From contig NZ_LYPF02000024.1 in assembly GCF_001661595.2 (NCBI RefSeq), positions 1 to 64,000 of the forward strand: 64,000 nucleotides of DNA, given 5' to 3'. Position numbers and translations under genes: made by a program. Below the pieces are notes generated by a model. That model was not told where the DNA came from. It saw only the letters and a program-made list of their open reading frames with translations, and did no database searches. Source of the DNA: Crocinitomix algicola. GTDB taxonomy: Bacteria; Bacteroidota; Bacteroidia; Flavobacteriales_D; Crocinitomicaceae. Positions 1-10,581 of the stretch are shown in pieces. Each line of letters opens with the position of its first letter. Within the stretch, counting starts at the first letter, position 1.

Positions 1-90
1 ACCCAAAGTAAAATGGCACAATACTTAATGAGTTATTTCAATATTCTCAATACTAAAGAAAGATTCTTACAAAAACAGTTAATCAAATAA
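1..90 (+). CDS. possible 3' end of a gene entering from the left
   Basis: The first 87 bases are open in frame 1 and end at a TAA at 88-90, giving 29 codons. The tail is lysine- and leucine-rich (it ends FLQKQLIK). It could be the C-terminus of a gene that starts outside the window, but a chance open frame of this length in AT-rich DNA is not rare. No family can be assigned. Confidence 0.3.
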   Translation, partial: TQSKMAQYLMSYFNILNTKERFLQKQLIK

Positions 91-280
91 ACTAAGCTCT
101 GTACAGTTCCTTAAACTATTTCTGTCGTTCATTAATTAGGAAAAAAATTCTTTTTTTAATAAGGTAATTTTGGCTTCATATGCAGAAGGTGCTCTGTAAA
201 AAGGAGTCTTCTACCTAAAAAGCACATTGTAAAACGACCACTACTTTTGAATCAATTCAGTAGTATTAACGCACGTTAAA
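91..280. other. intergenic stretch before the first complete gene
   Basis: No coding region is visible. The sequence TAATTTTG at 165-172 fits the Bacteroidetes -7 element TAnnTTTG on the plus strand and could drive the gene at 281, but I see no matching upstream TTG at the usual distance. Confidence 0.3.
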
Positions 281-1873
281 ATGAAAGAAATTACTTTAAT
301 TTTCAGTTTTATCATCATCAGTTTTTCTGTACAAGGAAAAATGATACCCAAATATGTTTTGAAAGAAAAGTATGGCAGTTACTTGGGGAATCCGGTTAAA
401 ACGGCAGATGGTACTAAAGTATATTTTAACTTCATGAAACTGATAAACGATGTTCCTAAATATACTTTACTTGAATTCGATGGAACCAATACCAAAGTAA
501 TACAGGCACCACTCGAAACATTTCCCGAAGGCTATACAGAAATCGCCACCCAAAATACAGGAACAAAACCTGTTGCTCAAGAATTAGAGTATTATGGGTT
601 TTGTACTTTGTACAAAGGTGAGGTATTAATAGGATATGGCCCTAAGAACACAGCAGGTTCAAAGCATCCTGAGGCGATGCAAACGGAATTACACCGTTAT
701 AAGAATGGTAAACACACGCCTTTTTTGATCTCAAGTATCAAGGAAAACCTAGTAAACATGGCTAAATTGGGCAATCCTGAAACAACAAATCCTGCAGAAT
801 ATGAAAAAATAATGAAATCAATGGAAAACGGTGTAAGTTATTTTGGCAATCCATTAATTTACAATTCGAATCATTTAATATTTGAAGCTACGGTGAATGG
901 TAATTCAGGCTACTACCATTATGATGAAGGAGCATTAACTTATCTTTATAAAGCACCGAAGTATTATTCAATTTTTTCAAATGGCAAAACCAAGTATTAC
1001 AAGGAGAGAACTTTTGTGTATTCTGTCGTTCACAAAAATCAACTATTCTCAATTGTCCAAGAATCAAAACGGCTAAACAGTCAAAGCCAAGAGGAACATC
1101 TTTTAGCAAAAGAATTGCATGTTTACGACCTTAAAAATCACACAGATAAAATATTAACTCACGCTAATTTTAAATCTTATCCAAAAAAAGCCAATAACGC
1201 CGTTTACGAAAATTTAATTTATTCTGCTGACGGTTATTTAAAAGAAGCAAGTCATCATTTACGTGTTATTAATAACGAATTGTTCTATACCGGCTTGTTA
1301 ACGAATGTCGTTGAAAATGTGAATACAGAATCATCCAATAAAAACAATAGGTATGGAATTTTTTATTTTCATGAAGGTCAATTTATACATTACAAACTTA
1401 CAGGCTACTCTATGGATAATAAACTAGACGGTTTCGTAGGTTCAGCAGGCTATCATCAGCAAGAGAAAATCTACTATTTTATTAATTATAAATACAGAGA
1501 TTCACCTCGATACAAACTATGTATAAATTCGCCTAATAACAATTTTCAACGACCTATTCAACCAATGAAAATGAAAGGTTATCGATTTGATCTCGTTCCA
1601 CACACGAATCCATTAACCATAGGAGGCAATTATATTTTTCATTATAAAAGTACAATTGGCGACGACACACATTTTGCTCATGATGGTAAACGCTTCATTT
1701 TGTACACTGGTTTTTTGACCAATCAAAAAGGGGAACTAACTGAGAAGGGGTATCCTTCTGATTTTGTCAAATTTGATGGTCGTTATTATGTTCTTTCCGG
1801 GGAGAATCATGACATGTTATACGAGTGGATATTCGATAAAACCGAGATGAAAACCGAAGGGTTTTATGATTAA
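281..1873 (+). CDS. secreted protein of unknown function, 530 aa
   Basis: The product begins with a Sec-type signal peptide (charged start, hydrophobic stretch to about residue 18, then QGK), so it is probably exported to the periplasm or surface. The rest is rich in Tyr, Phe, Asn and Lys, with many short beta-strand-like stretches such as YFHEGQFIHYKL, which would suit a beta-propeller or other all-beta fold. No catalytic motif, lipobox or T9SS sorting domain is visible at the C-terminus, which ends KTEGFYD. It stands alone on the plus strand and faces the copper-related genes convergently with a 48-bp gap. I do not recognise the family. Confidence 0.8.
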   Translation: MKEITLIFSFIIISFSVQGKMIPKYVLKEKYGSYLGNPVKTADGTKVYFNFMKLINDVPKYTLLEFDGTNTKVIQAPLETFPEGYTEIATQNTGTKPVAQELEYYGFCTLYKGEVLIGYGPKNTAGSKHPEAMQTELHRYKNGKHTPFLISSIKENLVNMAKLGNPETTNPAEYEKIMKSMENGVSYFGNPLIYNSNHLIFEATVNGNSGYYHYDEGALTYLYKAPKYYSIFSNGKTKYYKERTFVYSVVHKNQLFSIVQESKRLNSQSQEEHLLAKELHVYDLKNHTDKILTHANFKSYPKKANNAVYENLIYSADGYLKEASHHLRVINNELFYTGLLTNVVENVNTESSNKNNRYGIFYFHEGQFIHYKLTGYSMDNKLDGFVGSAGYHQQEKIYYFINYKYRDSPRYKLCINSPNNNFQRPIQPMKMKGYRFDLVPHTNPLTIGGNYIFHYKSTIGDDTHFAHDGKRFILYTGFLTNQKGELTEKGYPSDFVKFDGRYYVLSGENHDMLYEWIFDKTEMKTEGFYD

Positions 1874-1921
1874 ACTTTTTTATAAAACTTTTTTTAAGTA
1901 CGGGTTGCTGCTAATCTTTTT

Positions 1922-2917
1922 TTAGTTAAAATCAGGATTTTGAACAAAAAAAGGATCTACTAAAGTTTCTAAAAACTTAATCAACGCTTTCTTCTCACTA
2001 GGGGTATAGTGAAAACCTTCTGGTAACTTATTACTTAAGGTTGCACTCATTTTTATTCCATCGCTATAATGATCAATTACTTCATTGAGTGTGTTGAAGC
2101 GCCCATCGTGCATATATGGTGCTGTTAAGGTGATATTTCTTAAGGTTGGTACTTTAAACTTCCCTCTATCCGATGCGTTTAATGTAATTTGCGCTCGCCC
2201 TAAATCTTCAAACTCTTCGTCTAGTCCATTGTTTTCGAAATTGTAATTGGAAGTTAATGGCTCAGTATGACAGCTTACGCAGTCTCGTTGAAATAATTTA
2301 TAGCCCTTGTCCTGTTCTACATTAAAACTTGCTTCTCCCTTATATACACGGTCGTAATATGATTCGGAAGAAATTAAAGTTGCCATATATGCTGCCAAAG
2401 ACCATAATACACGTTGTGCAGTAATAGTATCTTCATTAAATGCGCGTAAAAACAAAGCACGATAATCGTTGTCTTGATATAATTCATCTACAATATGATT
2501 CATATCTTCTTTCATTTCTTTCACATTATTTATAGGAGCAAATCCTGTCAATTCGAGGTGATTTACGCCCCCATCCCAAAAAAATGTTGGGCTCCAAATT
2601 AGGTTAACTAAACCTATTGAATTTCTATCGGACAAGCTATCATCAACACCAAGACTAAAGGATTTTCCGGGATCCGAAAACCCGGCGCTTTGATGGTGAC
2701 ATGAAGCGCATGAAATTGAATTATCAAAAGATAAAATTGGATCGTAAAACAGTGCTTTCCCCAAATCAATTCCAGCTTGATTTAATTCGAAATTTGCGAA
2801 ATTATAATGAGGTTTGGGAAAATGACCAGGTTGTTTAATTAACGACACTTCAACAGCCTCCTTTTTACAAGACATCATTAATCCTGTTAAAAATAATATG
2901 CTCAAAAAATACTTCAT
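1922..2917 (-). CDS. MbnH-like di-heme cytochrome c peroxidase/MauG-family lipoprotein
   Basis: This is a 331-residue lipoprotein (lipobox ending at Cys17 in MMSCKKE) with two covalent heme motifs, CASCH at residues 70-74 and CVSCH at 213-217. The layout is that of the bacterial di-heme peroxidase (CcpA/MauG) superfamily, and the conserved stretch VPTLRNITLTAPYMHDG near residues 256-272 supports it. Family members either reduce hydrogen peroxide or, like MauG and MbnH, oxidise residues of a partner protein through a bis-Fe(IV) state. The gene lies directly downstream of an MbnP-like gene, which points to the MbnH role: oxidising a Trp of MbnP. A hairpin in the 41-bp gap may lower its expression relative to the upstream gene. 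Family confidence is high; the MbnH assignment is inferred from context. Confidence 0.88.
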   Translation of the reverse strand: MKYFLSILFLTGLMMSCKKEAVEVSLIKQPGHFPKPHYNFANFELNQAGIDLGKALFYDPILSFDNSISCASCHHQSAGFSDPGKSFSLGVDDSLSDRNSIGLVNLIWSPTFFWDGGVNHLELTGFAPINNVKEMKEDMNHIVDELYQDNDYRALFLRAFNEDTITAQRVLWSLAAYMATLISSESYYDRVYKGEASFNVEQDKGYKLFQRDCVSCHTEPLTSNYNFENNGLDEEFEDLGRAQITLNASDRGKFKVPTLRNITLTAPYMHDGRFNTLNEVIDHYSDGIKMSATLSNKLPEGFHYTPSEKKALIKFLETLVDPFFVQNPDFN

Positions 2918-2926
2918 GTTAAAAAA

Positions 2927-2950
2927 ACTCCCAGCTTATAGACTGGGAGT
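2927..2950 (-). terminator. intra-operon hairpin between the mbnP-like and mbnH-like genes
   Basis: ACTCCCAG at 2927-2934 and CTGGGAGT at 2943-2950 form an 8-bp stem with an 8-nt loop. Read on the minus strand the stem is followed by a T-run (bases 2921-2927 are A on the plus strand), so it looks like an intrinsic terminator or attenuator for leftward transcription, lying between two genes that should work together. Confidence 0.7.
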
Positions 2951-2958
2951 AATTCTTT

Positions 2959-3786
2959 TTAATTATTCTCAACACGGTCAAATGCGATATTTTCGTAGAA
3001 ATTTACAGCCATAGTTTGTGCTGCTTCTCCAGGCATATGAATCATTGCTGTTTCACTCACACTCGGAGACCCATGCCATAAACGTGCAGGGTTCGCAATT
3101 AAGTGTACAGCACTTGTTTTGTCCTCTTCAATCACTAAATCTTCAGAACTGAATAATACATTCTTTTCCGTCACAATATTATATTCTCCCTGAAAACCTC
3201 CAAGGTGAAATGCAAAAGATCCTGACCCAGAATCAGGAGAAGTACCTTCTGCTTTTAACATGATATAACCATTACTCCAACTCCAAAACATACCGTGTGA
3301 AACAGATAATGCACCGTCTTGCGCTCCTGATACATTTCTCGTGCTGTCTACACCCAACATGTACGTCATTTCTGTGTAGTTCCCTACTGGGACACCTTCA
3401 ATTTTTAAAGGATTATCAAGTCCTTCACTTAAATCGACTAAAAAGTAACTTTCTGGGTGTGACCACCATTCGCCATTTTCATTTTTTAATTTGAAATTCG
3501 AAATATAATATTTGAACGTTGAAAATTCAAGTTCATCCCCTGTCATGGGATGTTCCAACGTAGTTTCCATATTAAAATCAGCTCCTGCCATACCCCATTT
3601 ATAATCTACCTCAATATTTAATGTTCCGGTTTCATCATGGTTATGCTCATAGACACAAGAACCGTCATCTTTTTTTGCCTTTTCACTGTAATTTGTTGCG
3701 GCCTCATCCGTACAACCTTCTTTTTTACAAGAAGTTAAACTCAAACCTCCTAGTAGAACAATTAGTGTTATATTTTTAATTTTCAT
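2959..3786 (-). CDS. MbnP-like copper-binding lipoprotein
   Basis: This is a 275-residue lipoprotein (lipobox LTSC, Cys20). After a short Bacteroidetes-type repeat (GCTDEAATNYSE, closed by DDGSCVY, residues 24-46) it carries a domain matching the MbnP family. Family marks are FSTFKYYISNFKL near 88-100, a Leu-Val-Asp segment near 116-118, and SHGMFWSWSNGYIMLKAEG at 163-181 with Trp168 and Trp170. His164, His194, His228 and His250 are candidate metal ligands. MbnP proteins bind copper, and in the studied case a Trp is converted to kynurenine by the MauG-like partner MbnH, whose homologue is encoded just downstream. It is probably exported and anchored to a membrane; copper handling is inferred from family and neighbour. 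Confidence 0.85.
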   Translation of the reverse strand: MKIKNITLIVLLGGLSLTSCKKEGCTDEAATNYSEKAKKDDGSCVYEHNHDETGTLNIEVDYKWGMAGADFNMETTLEHPMTGDELEFSTFKYYISNFKLKNENGEWWSHPESYFLVDLSEGLDNPLKIEGVPVGNYTEMTYMLGVDSTRNVSGAQDGALSVSHGMFWSWSNGYIMLKAEGTSPDSGSGSFAFHLGGFQGEYNIVTEKNVLFSSEDLVIEEDKTSAVHLIANPARLWHGSPSVSETAMIHMPGEAAQTMAVNFYENIAFDRVENN

Positions 3787-3932
3787 TCCTTTTAATTTTT
3801 TTAATGAACGTGTAATCAGAACTCAAAACATGATTTTAAATTGAGCACTTTACACACGATAAATAATTATTAATTTCAATTACTTTGCTGAAGTTGAATC
3901 TTAAACTTCCAACTATTCATATGTCATTAGAC

Positions 3933-4331
3933 TTATGCCTGTTGAAATAATTGTTCTTCTGGAGGAGTGAAAATAGATTTACCATAACCTTTGTATGGTA
4001 TGCCAGGCGTATGATAAGTTTGTAGATTGTTTTTAAATAAACTTAACAACTTGAATTTTTGTATATTCTGTTTTGCTTGAAATACGAGTAGCCATGTTGA
4101 TGATTTCGTTTGCGCTGCTTTGCCAACTTTTTTTTCTTGCCCCGTTAAAAGCTTCGTTATATGACATTTTCCTTTACAGTTTAGTTCTGGTTTATCTTTA
4201 TTTACACAATGTTTGGCTGTAATTTCTTCTTGATTTAAAAAATAATAAGAAACTATAGAAAACTGCCACAGAGCACTCAATAAAAACAAGTTGACAAACA
4301 ATAGGGCTAATATGTTTCGCCATGAAATCAC
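3933..4331 (-). CDS. small membrane protein with a Cys-rich CX9CX3CH motif
   Basis: This 132-residue protein has one hydrophobic segment (about residues 7-32) followed by HCVNKDKPELNCKGKCH (residues 41-57; Cys42, Cys52, Cys56 and flanking His), which looks like a metal-binding cluster just outside the membrane. The rest is basic and Gln/Lys-rich. The start is taken as GTG at 4331, since no in-frame ATG precedes the membrane segment. It lies 146 bp upstream of the MbnP-like gene on the same strand, so copper sensing or handling is a reasonable guess. No enzymatic motif is seen. A -7 promoter-like TAATTTTG (4343 to 4336) sits only 5 bp upstream of the GTG, so the exact start is uncertain. Confidence 0.7.
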   Translation of the reverse strand: MISWRNILALLFVNLFLLSALWQFSIVSYYFLNQEEITAKHCVNKDKPELNCKGKCHITKLLTGQEKKVGKAAQTKSSTWLLVFQAKQNIQKFKLLSLFKNNLQTYHTPGIPYKGYGKSIFTPPEEQLFQQA

Positions 4332-4402
4332 GGTACAAAATTAGCAATAATACAATTCGAAACGTCTAAAATATCCCTTTTACATTGGCAAATAATTAGG
4401 GT

Positions 4403-5410
4403 TTATTGAATAATTGTCCAGATGCTTCCATTTTTCGTGTCAAAACGATCCAGTTTACCATTTTCGACGAGATCATTCAATAATGATTCACTTTGCGAAG
4501 TAGGTACTCCAGATATCTCAGCAAATTCTCTCAATGTATATGAAGTATAAACCTCAAACAGTTCATTCCACGTTTTCCCATATTCTTGTTTTTTGATTGC
4601 TGGATTTAATTTCAATAAAGCCACTTCGTACAAAGCATAAGGTTGTGAACCGTACACGCGTTCATTTGCACCATTTACACCTTCAAAAATCATGGTTGGA
4701 AATCCTCTAACATTATATTTTCGAGCAAGCTCCAAGTCTTGACCAAACTTTAATTTACCAATTCCTTCTACGTCATTTTTTAGTTGAACAGGGTCTAAGC
4801 CAACTTTTATTGCTGCTTTTTCTATATTTTCCCATTTGGCAATATTCACCTTTTTCAGGAAAACCATTTCCCTGATGGCTCTCATAAACAATTGTGCTTT
4901 ATTGTAGTCTTGCTCTTGGGCAGCTTTAAAAGCAATTGATGGTGGGTAAGACGAATCTAAAGGATCTTCTAACCAAACATCTCCATCAATGGGCATTTGA
5001 TAATGCAAACTAACTTCATCCCAATGATGAGCAACATCTGAAGGTTGACTAATTCCACCGCTATTATATGACCAATCAGGCAGCAATCCTCCCATGCGAT
5101 ATTCAATGGTAATACTTTCTCCGTATTCTAATTTCAATTTACGCAATTGCGGTTCAATGCCCCAACACGACGAACAAATTGGATCTGTAAAATAAATTAT
5201 CTTAATTTTTTCAGTTGTTTTGTCTGTGTTATTTTGGAGTGATTTGTTCTGATTTTCCTTACCCGGAACTTCGCACATCCCAGTTTCAGGATCACATAAT
5301 AATGGATTGGTTTTATTCTCTTTCATTTCTTTCGATGTCGTTTGTCCCTGACAAGCCGATAGGTTAAAAAAAGCTAGCAGCAGTATCAGATAATTTAAAT
5401 TCTTGATCAT
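4403..5410 (-). CDS. DsbA-family thiol-disulfide oxidoreductase lipoprotein
   Basis: The 335-residue product starts with a lipoprotein signal (lipobox LSAC, Cys20). A thioredoxin-like DsbA/FrnE-type domain follows from about residue 68, with active-site CSSC at 79-82 in DPICSSCWGIEP, an alpha-helical insert, and a cis-Pro region at RGFPTMIF. The FTDPICSSCW context resembles FrnE and SpxH-type proteins more than classical DsbA. Residues about 285-335 (YTLREFAEISGVP onward) look like a small helix-turn-helix-like appendage. Two further Cys (39 and 46) lie in the linker. It probably acts on disulfides outside the inner membrane. It is divergent from an HxlR-type regulator, which may control it. 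Confidence 0.85.
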   Translation of the reverse strand: MIKNLNYLILLLAFFNLSACQGQTTSKEMKENKTNPLLCDPETGMCEVPGKENQNKSLQNNTDKTTEKIKIIYFTDPICSSCWGIEPQLRKLKLEYGESITIEYRMGGLLPDWSYNSGGISQPSDVAHHWDEVSLHYQMPIDGDVWLEDPLDSSYPPSIAFKAAQEQDYNKAQLFMRAIREMVFLKKVNIAKWENIEKAAIKVGLDPVQLKNDVEGIGKLKFGQDLELARKYNVRGFPTMIFEGVNGANERVYGSQPYALYEVALLKLNPAIKKQEYGKTWNELFEVYTSYTLREFAEISGVPTSQSESLLNDLVENGKLDRFDTKNGSIWTIIQ

Positions 5411-5482
5411 TGATTGAATTAATTATTACCGCAAAATTAATGCAAACTAATTGTATTTTTGCTATTCATTTCCTTTTAGAAA

Positions 5483-5504
5483 GTAGTTCCCTTTTGGAAA
5501 CTAC
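5483..5504. promoter_or_regulatory. inverted repeat, candidate HxlR operator
   Basis: GTAGTT at 5483-5488 is mirrored by AACTAC at 5499-5504, with flanking CC and GG extending the symmetry. The repeat lies in the 114-bp gap between the divergent DsbA-like gene and the HxlR gene, 20 bp before the latter's start. HxlR regulators bind such short inverted repeats near their own promoters. Binding here is inferred. Confidence 0.4.
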
Positions 5505-5524
5505 AATAAATAATAAATAGACCG

Positions 5525-5896
5525 ATGAGAAAAAAAGCCCAGATCAATGAAACCCCAATCTGCCAATTGAGAATGCAAGCAATAAGCGATGCCATGAGTG
5601 TATTATCTGGTAAATGGAAATTCCACATTTTAGGAACTTTAATTGAAGGTAATAAATTAGGCTTCATGGATTTATTGCGTGAAGTGAATGGCATAGGTAC
5701 AAAAATGTTATCAAAAGAATTACAAGATTTAGAGGTAAATCAACTTATTAGCAGGAAAGTCTTGGACACAAAACCCATCACTGTTGAATATGCAATTACA
5801 GAAAATGGAAGAACCTTATCCCCATTAATTGATGAGTTAGCAAATTGGGGCATTGCATATCGCGCTTCTATTTTAAATAAAAACACGAATGATTAA
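5525..5896 (+). CDS. HxlR-family transcriptional regulator
   Basis: This 123-residue winged-helix protein has the HxlR family pattern: an early Cys (in TPICQLRMQ), ISDAMSVLSGKWKFHIL, the wing/recognition region FMDLLREVNGIGTKMLSKELQDLE, and a C-terminal helix ITENGRTLSPLIDELANWG. Many family members sense electrophiles or thiol oxidation through the early Cys. It diverges from the DsbA-like gene and is followed 70 bp later by a short NAD-binding oxidoreductase-like gene, either of which could be a target. Confidence 0.9.
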   Translation: MRKKAQINETPICQLRMQAISDAMSVLSGKWKFHILGTLIEGNKLGFMDLLREVNGIGTKMLSKELQDLEVNQLISRKVLDTKPITVEYAITENGRTLSPLIDELANWGIAYRASILNKNTND

Positions 5897-5966
5897 TCAA
5901 AAGTTTGGCAATTTTGAAATAAAACTTCTTGCTAAACGACCAAAGGTATAGTTAATTAAATAGAAC

Positions 5967-6632
5967 ATGAAGGTAATAATAACGGGGTCAACCGGGATGG
6001 TAGGCAAAGGCGTATTAATTGAATGTGTCGCTGACAAAAGGACTGAAGAAATTCTTCTGGTAAATCGCAATAGTATTGGAATTAAAGACCATAAAGTGAA
6101 GGAAGTTATTCTCCCTGATTTTCTTCAATTTGAGACCATCAAACATGAGTTAGTAGGATATGATGCCTGTTATCATTGCATGGGTGTTTCGTCATCTGGG
6201 ATGAATGAAAAGAAGTATGAAAAATTAACTTATGATGTTACTGCATCATTGGCTAAAACGCTGTTTGATTTAAATCCTAACATTATTTTCACTTATGTTT
6301 CGGGGCAAGGAACTGACAGCAGTGAAAAAGGAAAAATAATGTGGGCTAGAATTAAAGGAAAAACAGAAAACCTGATTCTTAACATGGGGTTTAAAGATGC
6401 ATATGCATTTCGACCTGGAGCAATTTTGCCTGAAAAAGGAGTTAAATCAAAAACGAAGTGGTATCAACTTTTATATGATATTATGCGACCATTTTATTTC
6501 TTACTCCGCAAGTTAAAATCAGTTACCACATCGAGTAATTTGGGTAAAGCTATGATCAATCTAACCTTTGCTCCAGAAACTATAAAGCATATTGATGGTG
6601 AAGCGATTAATCGAATTGCAAGTAAAACATAA
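5967..6632 (+). CDS. NAD(P)-binding epimerase/dehydratase-like protein (atypical SDR)
   Basis: The 221-residue product opens with the Rossmann dinucleotide motif TGSTGMVGKG (residues 7-16). It is shorter than classical extended SDRs (about 300) and lacks a clear YxxxK catalytic pair, which fits the atypical SDR/NmrA-like group. The substrate cannot be told. It follows the HxlR gene on the same strand and may be under its control. The gene ends at a strong hairpin shared with the convergent arsenic operon. Confidence 0.8.
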   Translation: MKVIITGSTGMVGKGVLIECVADKRTEEILLVNRNSIGIKDHKVKEVILPDFLQFETIKHELVGYDACYHCMGVSSSGMNEKKYEKLTYDVTASLAKTLFDLNPNIIFTYVSGQGTDSSEKGKIMWARIKGKTENLILNMGFKDAYAFRPGAILPEKGVKSKTKWYQLLYDIMRPFYFLLRKLKSVTTSSNLGKAMINLTFAPETIKHIDGEAINRIASKT

Positions 6633-6693
6633 AAAGAGGAGGCGCTGAAGCAAACGCTTTTAAAAAATAATCAAAAAAATGCGCCTCCTCTTT
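6633..6693. terminator. bidirectional terminator between the SDR gene and acr3
   Basis: A perfect 13-bp inverted repeat: AAAGAGGAGGCGC at 6633-6645 and GCGCCTCCTCTTT at 6681-6693, with a 35-nt loop. It sits between convergent genes (stops at 6632 and 6697) and could end transcription from both sides. The loop is long for a classical intrinsic terminator. Confidence 0.7.
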
Positions 6694-6696
6694 GCA

Positions 6697-7755
6697 CTAA
6701 TAACGCCAACGATTGGCAATAGCAACTAATGACAACATCACGGGTACTTCAATTAAAACACCAACAACCGTGGCTAGTGAAGCTCCAGAATTCAATCCAA
6801 AAATAGAAATGGCAACCGCAACGGCTAGTTCGAAAAAATTACTTGCTCCAATCATAGCTGACGGTGCACAAACTGCGTGATTTAATTTTAGAAAACGTCC
6901 AGCAAACCAACTCACAAAAAAGATAAAATACGTTTGTAGCGTTAATGGAATTGCGATTAAAAGAATGGCCAAAGGGTTTTCAATAATCTTTTGTCCTTGA
7001 AAAGCAAAAATCAACACTAAGGTTAGTAATAATGCAAGTATTGAGATTGGTTTTAGTTGCTTTAGAAATTTATTCTCAAACCAAACTTTTCCTTTCTGTT
7101 TAATTAACATTCGATTCGTTAAATAGCCAGTCACTAATGGAATTACAACAAAGACAATAACGGAAGTAATTAAAGTTTTATAAGGAATTCCGATTACTTC
7201 TCCATTTCCATTTAAAAAACTAATATCGAACCATGAAAAAAGTAATCCAACAATCGGTACAAAGGCGATTAATAGAATTAAATCGTTTACAGAAACCTGT
7301 ACCAAGGTATAATTTGCGTCTCCTTTTGTGAGATACGACCATACAAAAACCATAGCTGTACAAGGAGCTGCACCCAATAATATTGCACCCGCCAAATACT
7401 GTTCAGCATCTTCTGGACTCATCCATGCGCCATACAACATCTTAAAAAAAACATAAGCAAATAACGCCATAGTAAATGGTTTAATCAACCAGTTTACAAT
7501 AACAGTAAGACCTAGGCCTTTCCAATTTCGTGAAACATATTTAAGCGATGAAAAATCAATTTGAACCATCATTGGATAAATCATTAACCAAACCAAAATT
7601 GAAACGGGAACATTTACGGCGCCTATATTCCAATCACTTAATATGCGAATATCATCACCAGCTAAATACCCAACGCCAATTCCTGCAGCAATACACAATA
7701 TTACCCATAGGGTAAGGTATTTTTCAAAAAATCCAATTTTTAGATCTTCACTCAT
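6697..7755 (-). CDS. acr3: ACR3-family arsenite efflux permease
   Basis: This is a 352-residue membrane protein with about ten hydrophobic segments. The ACR3 hallmark GAAPCTAMVFVWS (residues 128-140, with the functionally conserved Cys132) is present, as is the later ACR3 stretch SAMIGASNFFELAVAVAIS. ACR3 exports As(III), usually by proton exchange across the inner membrane. I start at the ATG at 7755, one base after the stop of the arsenate-reductase-like gene, because the open frame upstream of it (to 7797) runs into that gene. It is the last gene of the arsenic operon, and a bidirectional hairpin follows. Confidence 0.95.
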   Translation of the reverse strand: MSEDLKIGFFEKYLTLWVILCIAAGIGVGYLAGDDIRILSDWNIGAVNVPVSILVWLMIYPMMVQIDFSSLKYVSRNWKGLGLTVIVNWLIKPFTMALFAYVFFKMLYGAWMSPEDAEQYLAGAILLGAAPCTAMVFVWSYLTKGDANYTLVQVSVNDLILLIAFVPIVGLLFSWFDISFLNGNGEVIGIPYKTLITSVIVFVVIPLVTGYLTNRMLIKQKGKVWFENKFLKQLKPISILALLLTLVLIFAFQGQKIIENPLAILLIAIPLTLQTYFIFFVSWFAGRFLKLNHAVCAPSAMIGASNFFELAVAVAISIFGLNSGASLATVVGVLIEVPVMLSLVAIANRWRY

Positions 7756-7756
7756 C

Positions 7757-8359
7757 TTATTTGATTTTTGAAAAGACATAAAACATTTCTGTCGCAATTT
7801 CGAAAGAGCGATAATCGTAGAAAGTTTCTTCTAACGGAGAATCATCAAATAGTTTGGGATCATCGTAACGAATTGGAATTCTTTGCTCACATCCTGCCAC
7901 AAAAGGACAATTCTCATCTGCATGCGAACAAGTCATTATTGCCGCAAAAGTGCTATTTGGGTTAATTGTGTCATCGTACAACTTTGAATACATCACAATA
8001 GGTTCTTTTTGTTCATTCCACTTGACACGTACTTTAGGATTGTTTCCTTTATCAACATCAATATCAAAGCCAAATCGTTGAAGAGAACTAAAGGCACGCG
8101 TATTAAAAGCAGTTATTTCCACTCCACCGCTAAACGATTGAGCTGAAACGTTATAATAGTCGGCAGCTACGGTGCTCCATATTTGAGCAAATTGACTTCT
8201 TCGCGAATTATGTGTGCATATATAATTTAAGAGAATCGGGGATTCTGCGTTCTTTTTATTTTGAATGAAGCTAACCAAAAGATCCAGTTCTTTCTTACGA
8301 TTAGCATCAATCGTCTCCAAATCAATCAACTTTATGATTGTTTTAATTTTTTCAAACAT
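7757..8359 (-). CDS. arsenate reductase-type low-molecular-weight tyrosine phosphatase
   Basis: The 200-residue product carries the phosphatase P-loop CTHNSRRS (residues 48-55, Cys48 and Arg54 of CX5R) and a downstream Cys cluster TCSHADENCPFVAGC, suited to the thiol relay of thioredoxin-coupled arsenate reductases. The N-terminal 40 residues are an extra helical region ahead of the core. It would reduce As(V) to As(III) for export by ACR3, whose gene starts one base after this stop. It lies 12 bp downstream of the DUF6428 gene in the same operon. Bacteroidetes homologues are often annotated simply as protein-tyrosine phosphatases. Confidence 0.88.
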   Translation of the reverse strand: MFEKIKTIIKLIDLETIDANRKKELDLLVSFIQNKKNAESPILLNYICTHNSRRSQFAQIWSTVAADYYNVSAQSFSGGVEITAFNTRAFSSLQRFGFDIDVDKGNNPKVRVKWNEQKEPIVMYSKLYDDTINPNSTFAAIMTCSHADENCPFVAGCEQRIPIRYDDPKLFDDSPLEETFYDYRSFEIATEMFYVFSKIK

Positions 8360-8371
8360 GTTTTTTCTTTT

Positions 8372-8839
8372 TTAGCAGCATCCAGATCCTGGTGTACACG
8401 TATTATTCGATGTTGAAGTGGCGTTATTTACCTGATTTTCATCTGTAGGAATTCCACATTTATCTTTTGCTAAGCAGTCTGTTGTCAGCGATTTCAATAA
8501 AAAATGATCTCCCTTTAACTCAATTCCGTACTTACCAATTGTAGCTCCTTGATATTCTACTTCAATTTCCTGATTTGTTAATCCTAAGCGTTTTTCTGAC
8601 AACTCAATGATTGATAACAACTTCTCAGGATGCAAGCGGTGGTCATAATCATTTGCTTCCCACAGCTGAAAATTTACTCTTTGTTCTAATCGCATTGTTC
8701 CTCCGCAATCAATAAAGTGCTTCGTAACATTACCTACTTCTGTTACGTGAAAATGTGCAGGAACCAATTCTCCATTTGGCAACTCAAAAGCGATTTTCTC
8801 TCTTTTGATTAATTCTTGTTTAAATCTGTCTAAATTCAT
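8372..8839 (-). CDS. DUF6428 family protein of the arsenic operon
   Basis: This 155-residue soluble protein matches the family found in Bacteroidetes ars operons. Typical segments are FELPNGELVPAHFHVTEVG (about 18-36) and FIDCGGTMR (about 42-50), with two His-containing strands. Its C-terminus ends CTPGSGCC (Cys148, 154, 155), a thiol tail that could bind trivalent arsenic. The molecular role is unknown. Position argues for arsenic resistance: it is between arsR and the arsenate reductase, with its own copy of the arsR operator 15 bp before the start codon. Confidence 0.8.
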   Translation of the reverse strand: MNLDRFKQELIKREKIAFELPNGELVPAHFHVTEVGNVTKHFIDCGGTMRLEQRVNFQLWEANDYDHRLHPEKLLSIIELSEKRLGLTNQEIEVEYQGATIGKYGIELKGDHFLLKSLTTDCLAKDKCGIPTDENQVNNATSTSNNTCTPGSGCC

Positions 8840-8853
8840 TTTATCATTTAATT

Positions 8854-8869
8854 ATTGCAATATTACGAT
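8854..8869. promoter_or_regulatory. ArsR operator copy 2, before the DUF6428 gene
   Basis: The 16-mer ATTGCAATATTACGAT is identical to the one at 9230-9245 and is an imperfect palindrome around AATATT. It lies 14 bp upstream of the DUF6428 start and downstream of the arsR stop, so ArsR could control the resistance genes separately from its own gene. Confidence 0.7.
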
Positions 8870-8887
8870 GGGTGTATTCAAATTTTT

Positions 8888-9223
8888 TTAACAGCAATTA
8901 TCTGCTCCACAACAAGGGTGTTGATCGAAAAAGTTTTCAAAGCTCGCCTTAAACGCTAGCCATTTTTCTTCATCTATACAGTAGCTCATCGAAACACCTT
9001 CTATAGTTCCTTTTATGATTCCAATTGCTTTCAATTCTTTCAAGTGTTGACTAATTGTAGCTTGCGCGAGACCTAATTCTTGTACTAAATCAGAATTTAT
9101 ACATGCATTAGCATTTAATAAATGTTGTAGAATCGCAACACGTGCTGGATGCGAAAACACTTTCCCCATCTGTGCAAAAGCATTTTGCTCTTCGGTAAAT
9201 AAATTTGTTTTAGTTAAACCCAT
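8888..9223 (-). CDS. arsR: ArsR-family metalloregulator
   Basis: This 111-residue winged-helix repressor has the ArsR/SmtB fold: FSHPARVAILQHLL (23-36), the recognition helix in GLAQATISQHLKELKAIG (51-68), and a basic wing. The ELCxC arsenic site of E. coli ArsR is absent. Candidate thiol ligands are Cys41, Cys82 and a C-terminal cluster CCGADNCC (104-111), so the As(III) site probably lies at the C-terminus as in other ArsR subtypes. It is first in the operon and has an operator 6 bp before its start, which indicates autoregulation with derepression by arsenite. Confidence 0.92.
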   Translation of the reverse strand: MGLTKTNLFTEEQNAFAQMGKVFSHPARVAILQHLLNANACINSDLVQELGLAQATISQHLKELKAIGIIKGTIEGVSMSYCIDEEKWLAFKASFENFFDQHPCCGADNCC

Positions 9224-9229
9224 AATTAT

Positions 9230-9245
9230 ATTGCAATATTACGAT
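9230..9245. promoter_or_regulatory. ArsR operator copy 1, before arsR
   Basis: ATTGCAATATTACGAT here repeats exactly the 16-mer at 8854-8869. On the minus strand it reads ATCGTAATATTGCAAT, a near palindrome, ending 6 bp before the arsR ATG and so overlapping where RNA polymerase or the ribosome would load. Confidence 0.7.
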
Positions 9246-9477
9246 ATATAATTCAAAAAAGACATATTTGATTTTATTTTTTTTAGCAGAACTTATGCCT
9301 GCATAACTAAAAAGCAAGTTTTCAACCAGTTATAAAACACATATAAATACTGTTGCTTCGGGCTTTTGTTTGGGCAAAATCCATTAATAAACTTAATCAA
9401 ATGGTTACTAAAATTTTCACAAATTCACACCAATAGCGTTTGTATTTTAGCGCCGAAAAATATTCTAATCAACAACT

Positions 9478-10581
9478 ATGTATAAAAAAACATTCACAAT
9501 TTTTGCTGTTATAGTCGTTTCCGCAACAAGTTTTGGTCAGCTAGGAAATTTAAAAAATCAGCTAAAAGAAAAAAGTTCAACGGTTTTAAAAACTGACGGT
9601 AGTTCGACATCAAAAAAACCAAAAATTATTACTCCAGAAGAATACGCCAAAGAAGTTTATAGTTTTGAAGATCGAATTTTAAAGGTTGATAATAATCAAG
9701 CAATCATAAAAGGATTATATAAAAAGGATTTTGAAGATCGCGTAGGTTTAAGTGGATTTTATTATTTAAACACTGTATTTTCAAAGACTCCATCCAGTCA
9801 TTTCAGCTCTGACACTACAAAAATGTATAGTGGTTTCTCAATTAACTATTCGCCGGACACTTATGACATGCAAGTTCATTTTTCGAGCGAAGACTCGAAC
9901 TATGCTGTAATTTTAAAAGAATATCAAAAATCGGCTGATAAAGGAAATATGAATTTTCAATTCGGAATTCAAGGCGGTCCACAGGAAATTTTTAATGCAA
10001 AATGTTTAGTCCTAGAGCCAGGAGTTATACTTTTTGGGGCCTATGTCTATCATAAGAATGACGAAGTAGGACATCAGTGGATGAATGATTATGAGCCTGA
10101 AGCATTCTATATAGCTGCAAAAGACACTTCAAAATTCAAAGAATACCAGGCCAATCCTGAATATACTTCGCAGGTTGTATTTGAAAAATTTGATCGTTTG
10201 CGGGAGACGAAGTTAGGTCAGGACATTGCGGAAGCCAAGCCTCTTCCAAAAGAAGGAATGACCAATAGTAAATTAAAAGCTGAAGCTTTGTCGCTAATTA
10301 AAAAAACTGCAGATGCCTATCAATGGAAAGAAGAGGTTGAGTATGCCTATATCGTTTCTACCGATTGGGAAATTAAACGATATCCTATTACTGGGATTCC
10401 GATGAAAAGAATCGTTAAGGCCATTGTTGTAATGAAAACACCAAAAGGAAACTATAAGCGAGAGGGCTTTTATATAGCGCAAGATTACCTAGAAAACAAT
10501 ACTTATGGGAACACATACATGTTATACAATGATCAACGCATTTATTATGTCAATCCAAACGACGCATTCACCTACAAATAG
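9478..10581 (+). CDS. secreted protein of unknown function, 367 aa
   Basis: A signal peptide (MYKKTFTIFAVIVV, cleavage likely after FGQ at about 21) precedes a low-complexity Lys/Ser region (about 22-50) and then a mixed alpha/beta part without recognised motifs. No transmembrane segment follows, and there is no lipobox or T9SS C-terminal domain. The start is the only ATG close to the signal peptide. It is transcribed divergently from arsR with a 254-bp gap and ends at a strong hairpin shared with sulP. I do not recognise the family. Confidence 0.78.
   Translation: MYKKTFTIFAVIVVSATSFGQLGNLKNQLKEKSSTVLKTDGSSTSKKPKIITPEEYAKEVYSFEDRILKVDNNQAIIKGLYKKDFEDRVGLSGFYYLNTVFSKTPSSHFSSDTTKMYSGFSINYSPDTYDMQVHFSSEDSNYAVILKEYQKSADKGNMNFQFGIQGGPQEIFNAKCLVLEPGVILFGAYVYHKNDEVGHQWMNDYEPEAFYIAAKDTSKFKEYQANPEYTSQVVFEKFDRLRETKLGQDIAEAKPLPKEGMTNSKLKAEALSLIKKTADAYQWKEEVEYAYIVSTDWEIKRYPITGIPMKRIVKAIVVMKTPKGNYKREGFYIAQDYLENNTYGNTYMLYNDQRIYYVNPNDAFTYK

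Follow-up and report, generated by a model that had tools for sequence, protein, structure and literature searches.

A Cys-rich membrane protein ahead of an MbnP/MbnH-like pair in Crocinitomix algicola: a candidate copper-sensing nascent-chain leader

What is the role of a small Cys-rich membrane protein encoded directly ahead of a copper-type gene pair? This question is raised by positions 1922–4331 of a 64,000-nucleotide stretch of Crocinitomix algicola DNA (contig NZ_LYPF02000024.1, positions 1–64,000; hereafter, the window), in which listing and translation of open reading frames (ORFs) gave three ORFs on the minus strand. Along this strand, transcription runs from a DsbA/thioredoxin-like gene (5410–4403) through the Cys-rich gene (4331–3933) and mbnP (3786–2959) to an MbnH-like gene (2917–1922). 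A preliminary description had presented the pair as a stand-alone use of a rare Trp modification outside a methanobactin cluster. Its coordinates, motifs and Trp numbering (W168 and W170) were correct when the residue positions were rechecked. Its observation is correct but ordinary in the main claim, while the Cys-rich companion is the new and interesting part. The locus is best explained as a Bacteroidota copper operon. For the companion, a role as regulatory leader fits better than one as a functional membrane partner, and conservation patterns suggest that it is probably a nascent-chain copper sensor controlling the genes downstream.

The Cys-Rich Protein and Its Family

The Cys-rich gene (3933–4331, minus strand, GTG start) encodes a 132-aa protein (CVNKDKPELNCKGKCH) that has a single membrane helix and three Cys, which confirms the Cys-rich membrane protein of the preliminary description. 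The protein is laid out as C42-x9-C52-x-G-x-C56, a spacer and an F-T-P-P stretch that ends 8 residues before the stop. In its AlphaFold (AF2) model, helices 4–32 and 34–41 are confident, and the rest is of low confidence and looks disordered. The protein had no match in Pfam and none above cut-off in NCBIfam, and no convincing Pfam match was found among 34 members of its family (best E 0.0068). In the literature searched, which covered few subscription papers, there was no description of the family or of its link to MbnP/MbnH in Bacteroidota.

When the 132-aa protein was used as query, 123 of the 299 genomes sampled from the order proved to contain relatives. Neighbourhoods were taken for all listed matches but two (G110:C19 and G158:C136). 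The 140 loci (L069–L208) include one from the organism's own genome that was taken for its MbnP, and 138 of them gave a family protein with a local profile. Within the first 80 loci, the last part had partly been chosen for a known nearby MbnP; to remove this bias, the remaining matches were included in the counts of Pro-Pro (PP) ends, spacing and MbnP proximity. Named genomes, scanned with a short peptide pattern, added 548 relatives; the analysis kept the best 80 of these, which by construction are close to the query. By record title, the 80 fall in Flavobacteriales, Marinilabiliales, Cytophagales, Chitinophagales and Sphingobacteriales, some having no order in the title. Three of the 80 (L279, L295 and L328) are titled to other phyla, as Kuenenia or Actinomyces metagenome-assembled genomes, and were taken as probably mislabelled bins.

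Residues C42, C52, G54, C56, P123 and P124 are invariant in a 34-row alignment and in 79/79 proteins of the first set, and the three-Cys motif is present in 140/140 proteins of the order sample. PP lies within the last 13 residues of 135 of the 138 complete proteins in this sample, compared with 12 of the 484 other genes no longer than 200 aa and 22/1643 genes overall at the same loci. The same position was found in 84/88 proteins of the named set, the other four having FHPP farther from the stop. PP follows the last Cys at a narrow distance, which spans 63–77 residues in the order sample (mean 69.9, standard deviation (sd) 3.4) and 65–74 residues in the named set (mean 67.7, sd 1.8). When both sets were pooled and identical proteins counted once, 203 of the 206 distinct complete proteins had PP 60–80 residues past the last Cys (mean 69.1, sd 3.1); the three without PP were set aside for the spacing and for the ratio of nonsynonymous to synonymous substitution rates (dN/dS). 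The distance from the start to the first Cys varies more (sd 10.4), but it was not counted as evidence, since each ORF start is the first possible start codon, which inflates the sd.

In contrast to the motifs, the spacer shares little sequence: its identity is 15% in equal-length pairs below 60% identity, compared with 7% after shuffling and 65% in the Cys motif. Among 85 close pairs, the dN/dS was 0.21 in the spacer, compared with 0.04 in the Cys motif and 0.02 in the tetrapeptide whose last two residues are PP. This tetrapeptide is FHPP in 117/203 members and FTPP in 2/203. Because PP is encoded by many different codon pairs across the family, selection acts on the peptide.

The invariant Cys motif adjoins the membrane helix, which would also suit a stable inner-membrane copper chaperone whose three Cys pass Cu(I) to MbnP, to a barrel or to a YtkA-like protein, with FHPP as the docking site. 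The spacer dN/dS of 0.21 also speaks for such a stable protein. However, the C-terminal 80 residues look disordered and have little sequence in common, yet they place PP at a narrow distance from the Cys and near the stop.

Genes around the Cys-Rich Gene

The Cys-rich gene shares its strand with the downstream gene in 194 of 201 distinct cases, compared with 1472/2091 adjacent pairs in the control, and with the upstream gene in 129/201. In the window, mbnP starts 146 nt downstream of the Cys-rich gene, behind a spacer at 3787–3932 (minus strand). The first downstream gene (n = 201) encodes an outer-membrane protein (OMP) barrel in 100 cases, MbnP in 23, a YtkA-like lipoprotein in 21 and a TonB receptor in 18. 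The remainder comprises 25 other genes, 7 genes on the opposite strand, 4 small lipoproteins, 2 family members and 1 MbnH. The barrel is distantly related to Phenol_MetA_deg, most copies have an N-terminal CxxC, and its copper link is drawn from its neighbours. The downstream modules are mostly copper-linked or of outer-membrane type (OMP barrel, MbnP, YtkA, TonB receptor), a further point in favour of the chaperone. On the other side, the downstream partner proteins are unrelated to each other, and unrelated modules behind one small gene fit a regulator better than a dedicated partner. We regard the chaperone as unlikely, though worth keeping in mind.

In the barrel itself, the CxxC, mostly CDxC, falls within the first 60 residues in 101/123 distinct members (e.g., L131:7997–8926) and in 24/867 other ORFs of similar length; it might form a metal site where the mature protein begins. 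At three loci (L094:12341–13204, L148:7953–8816 and L336:4985–5848), the place directly after the Cys-rich gene is taken not by a structural gene but by one for a 287-aa protein, read from its sequence as an AraC-type regulator.

Among the cases with enough sequence, an MbnP lies within 4 kb downstream in 54/123 of the order sample and in 32/81 of the named set. The order-sample frequency, for genomes such as that of the window with three MbnPs in 3.7 Mb, and the invariance of the small-protein motifs speak against the view that only the known copper pair matters, with MbnP and MbnH acting through the kynurenine chemistry already published and a small protein that is just a neutral neighbour. 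In favour of a neutral neighbour, the small protein has no Pfam match and no NCBIfam match above cut-off, and an earlier report already describes the pair outside methanobactin clusters (PMC3621798). On balance, we consider it improbable. The three PF20243 genes of the genome lie in the window, on contig 12 near a second member of the Cys-rich family, and on contig 34 beside another MbnH-like gene. On contig 12 (L070:6512–9141), the second Cys-rich gene is followed by an OMP barrel, a small lipoprotein and an MbnP that keeps its Trp-x-Trp (WxW) motif, with no MbnH nearby.

Upstream of the Cys-rich gene in the window, at a distance of 71 nt, is the gene of a DsbA/thioredoxin-like lipoprotein (4403–5410, minus strand; Thioredoxin_5, PF13743, 162.9 bits). 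It would give the companion a possible role in redox or haem maturation, in which both proteins keep the CxxCH of MbnH or other exported cysteines reduced. Nevertheless, just two of the first 80 loci have a thioredoxin homologue, and the window is one of them; with 1/79 other family loci of that set, the association is not conserved. In addition, many members head modules with no MbnH found within 4 kb. Such a redox partner is very improbable.

A Putative Copper-Sensing Nascent Chain

As a regulatory leader, the Cys-rich protein would be a short-lived sensor that is read during its own translation, and not mainly a structural partner. Its N-terminal helix would engage the Sec translocon. Some 30–40 residues fill the ribosome exit tunnel and about 30 more span the translocon; from these lengths, the three-Cys motif, which ends 67 residues before PP in the window protein, would be just outside, in the periplasm, as the ribosome reaches the slow PP near the stop. 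If copper then bound the Cys motif, the pause would be prolonged or released, and this would determine how strongly the downstream genes are expressed, namely MbnP/MbnH in the window and OMP, YtkA or TonB-receptor modules elsewhere. Were the ribosome to serve as the ruler, one would expect just this pattern of two motifs kept at a narrow distance across a stretch of low identity that looks unstructured, with the second motif almost at the stop. The sequences show the motifs, their narrow spacing, the predicted disorder and the order of the genes downstream; copper binding, ribosome pausing, the direction of regulation and an output at the RNA level are inferred.

Small exported proteins of this kind have precedents. 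CutF and CruR sense copper during translation and regulate the next genes (PMC9973294, PMC9426467). CutF of Rhodobacter capsulatus has a CxxxC and a proline-rich end (PMC9973294), the same layout as the Cys-rich family, which adds an invariant Cys ten residues before the CxxxC and differs in its FHPP-type end and in the MbnP/MbnH, YtkA and OMP-barrel modules downstream. Of the features that define CutF-like proteins, the window protein has a length below 150 aa with PP within 15 residues of the C-terminus (132 aa, PP 123–124) and a CxxxC (C52-KGK-C56); for the predicted Sec signal peptide, the observation is limited to the AF2 N-terminal helices 4–32 and 34–41. Since the family agrees with those rules that could be tested, some members may already be in the CutF-like lists of that study, in whose list D Bacteroidota have a share of 19% or 40% by two counts (PMC9973294). 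The main text of this paper makes no mention of MbnP or MbnH.

With CruR, the family has in common a small exported protein upstream of copper genes, with a Cys motif and a C-terminal PP at conserved spacing. CruR carries CxxC and RAPP with 45 residues between them, and its operons can include MbnPH-like genes (PMC9426467). The Cys-rich family instead has C-x9-CxGxC and mostly HPP, at about 68 residues, and the window protein, with C-x9-CxGxC and FTPP, lacks the CxxC and RAPP of CruR. The RAPP/RGPP arrest peptides are likewise small and exported, with Pro-Pro near the C-terminus and a position upstream of the regulated gene, but they end in R-A/G-P-P, while the Cys-rich family mostly ends in FHPP (PMC12992588, PMC10987492).

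The companion was also considered as a DUF2946 protein (PF11162), and this was rejected: 0/34 members matched at E ≤ 1, and hhalign profile comparison with 7 DUF2946-type proteins of the order gave a probability of 3.2%. PF11162 itself has matches in 9/299 genomes of the order, 2 of them above cut-off. Seven of the eight PF11162 loci given (L249–L252 and L254–L256) hold a protein with CxxC and, a few residues before its end, R[AG]PP, away from the loci of the Cys-rich family. A 2025 EMBO J study reports R[AG]PP in upstream ORFs of copper-related genes from many lineages, Bacteroidota not being among them (PMC12992588). The seven proteins do not settle this reported absence. The FHPP family could fill most of the place of R[AG]PP leaders in Bacteroidota. 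More broadly, the phylum may well have its own copper-sensing nascent chains, in which a Cys motif and an FHPP stall site control several unrelated copper operons, including MbnP/MbnH.

Several observations weigh against the companion being such a leader. The window member is atypical, with an FTPP end shared by 2/203 proteins and 8 residues past PP; three members have no PP, and four have tails of 12–27 residues beyond it. Some purifying selection acts on the spacer (dN/dS 0.21), in which similarity between members exceeds that of shuffled sequences. When tested in the CutF study, the proline-rich end of that protein did not behave as a strong stalling sequence (PMC9973294). At the RNA level, predicted structure in the downstream spacers is slightly higher than in controls (mean z −1.70, n = 141, versus −1.41, n = 180; rank test p 0.004, with rows that are not independent); the window spacer, folded with 20 further nt, gave z −1.8 and a weak 6-bp stem over the mbnP start codon. 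Finally, a same-strand gene lies within 100 bp upstream in 93/201 cases, so it is not established that the Cys-rich gene opens the operon; in the window, the thioredoxin-like gene lies 71 nt upstream.

The MbnP/MbnH-Like Pair and Its Tryptophan Motif

What, then, would the proposed leader control in the window? The 275-aa lipoprotein (SHGMFWSWSNGY) encoded at 2959–3786 (minus strand), with W168, W170 and H194, reached 156.7 bits with the MbnP profile PF20243 (cut-off 27), which bears out its earlier assignment as MbnP-like. Its AF2 model, built from a 40-row alignment (pLDDT 89.5), was compared with the Protein Data Bank (PDB) using Foldseek; the top six matches were the six chains of 7L6G, the entry 'MbnP from Methylosinus trichosporium', with a best E of 4.4e-9 and TM values of 0.46–0.48 by query length. 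A profile search placed GMFWSW of the window protein opposite GMAWNW of 7L6G, although with a weak E value (0.41), and the sequence alone matched no MbnP in the PDB. The match to 7L6G is therefore carried by the fold search. W168 and W170, encoded within 3277–3285 (minus strand) and earlier put forward as candidates for the modified residue, line up in that profile alignment with the WxW of 7L6G. According to a 2021 PNAS paper, the residue converted to kynurenine is reportedly the first of the two Trp in WxW; in the window protein this would be W168.

The adjacent gene (1922–2917, minus strand) encodes a 331-aa di-heme c-type cytochrome lipoprotein of the MauG/CcpA superfamily, as described before, with the haem sites CASCH and CVSCH and 166.9 bits for CCP_MauG (cut-off 25.6). 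Two CxxCH sites in a MauG-type protein beside MbnP are what characterizes MbnH. Residues 28–330 align with PDB entry 6e1c ('Di-heme enzyme'), which presumably is MbnH, and APYMHDG is common to both. Three other di-heme peroxidase chains score slightly above 6e1c with phmmer, but only 6e1c covers the full 28–330. The best NCBIfam match is the MbnH family TIGR04039, at 209.5 bits (cut-off 362.85), and MbnP reaches 38.2 bits with the equivalog TIGR04052 (MbnP_like_WxW; cut-off 140). Since both curated cut-offs were missed, the pair is filed as PF20243 plus MbnH-like and not under the NCBIfam equivalogs. The gene pair, the WxW, the fold and the di-heme partner are shared with methanotroph MbnP/MbnH (TIGR04052/TIGR04039, 7L6G), while the window pair differs in its scores below both cut-offs and in a genome with no MbnB gene found. 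By homology to the known chemistry, the MbnH-like protein is proposed to oxidise an MbnP Trp to kynurenine, which would create a copper site.

The absence of methanobactin genes held for the MbnB type (PF05114), none of which was found across the whole assembly (listed as 99.94% complete). The claim of a rare, stand-alone use did not hold: the pair was described in 2013 as conserved 'far beyond' methanobactin producers, with TIGRFAM models (PMC3621798), and its novelty outside methanobactin clusters was rejected on this ground. PF20243 is present in 282 of the 299 genomes sampled from the order. The term 'metallo-mystery pair' led to no match in the literature searched.

By count, the WxW is strongly linked to an adjacent MbnH. 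Among 127 distinct MbnPs (ORFs of 200–340 aa, identical ones counted once, MbnH-less ones less than 1.5 kb from a locus end excluded), both W168 and W170 are kept in 99/99 with an adjacent MbnH, compared with 10/28 without. In the latter, W168 is kept in 26/28 and W170 in only 10/28. H194 shows the same trend, with 97/99 and 14/28, respectively. All 18 MbnPs without WxW are MbnH-less, but they represent only four changes on the tree. With four well-supported independent pairs, a sign test cannot reach 0.05, and the tree-based test was not significant. The loss of the second Trp with the first retained recurs at L072, L074, L080, L085, L088, L094, L099, L160, L202 and other loci. Although the first Trp is the one said to be converted, the second tends to be lost; it may serve an electron path or recognition by MbnH. 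An MbnH elsewhere in the genome could also act in trans on MbnPs without an adjacent one. At 40 further MbnP loci, picked among the best-scoring matches listed for PF20243 and away from matches to the Cys-rich family, WxW was present in 40/40 and MbnH lay within 12 bases in 38, the other two being at a contig end.

A few genes upstream of the copper genes, the translations of window positions 6697–9223 (minus strand) were read as an arsenic-type cluster, with an ArsR-like protein ending in CCGADNCC, a 155-aa protein ending in GSGCC, a phosphatase-like protein and an ACR3-like permease. No Rfam element was found at gathering thresholds within window positions 1–10,000.

If the companion is indeed a nascent-chain leader, a family that has no name, present in 123/299 sampled genomes of one order, would turn into a copper sensor open to testing; with its narrow Cys-to-PP spacing, mutations could probe directly how periplasmic metal is read by a nascent chain. 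The rare Trp-to-kynurenine modification would be connected with a defined switch in regulation, and a possible copper assignment would be gained for many operons whose function is unknown. A phylum-wide class of such chains, if real, would explain the reported lack of RAPP-type copper leaders in Bacteroidota.

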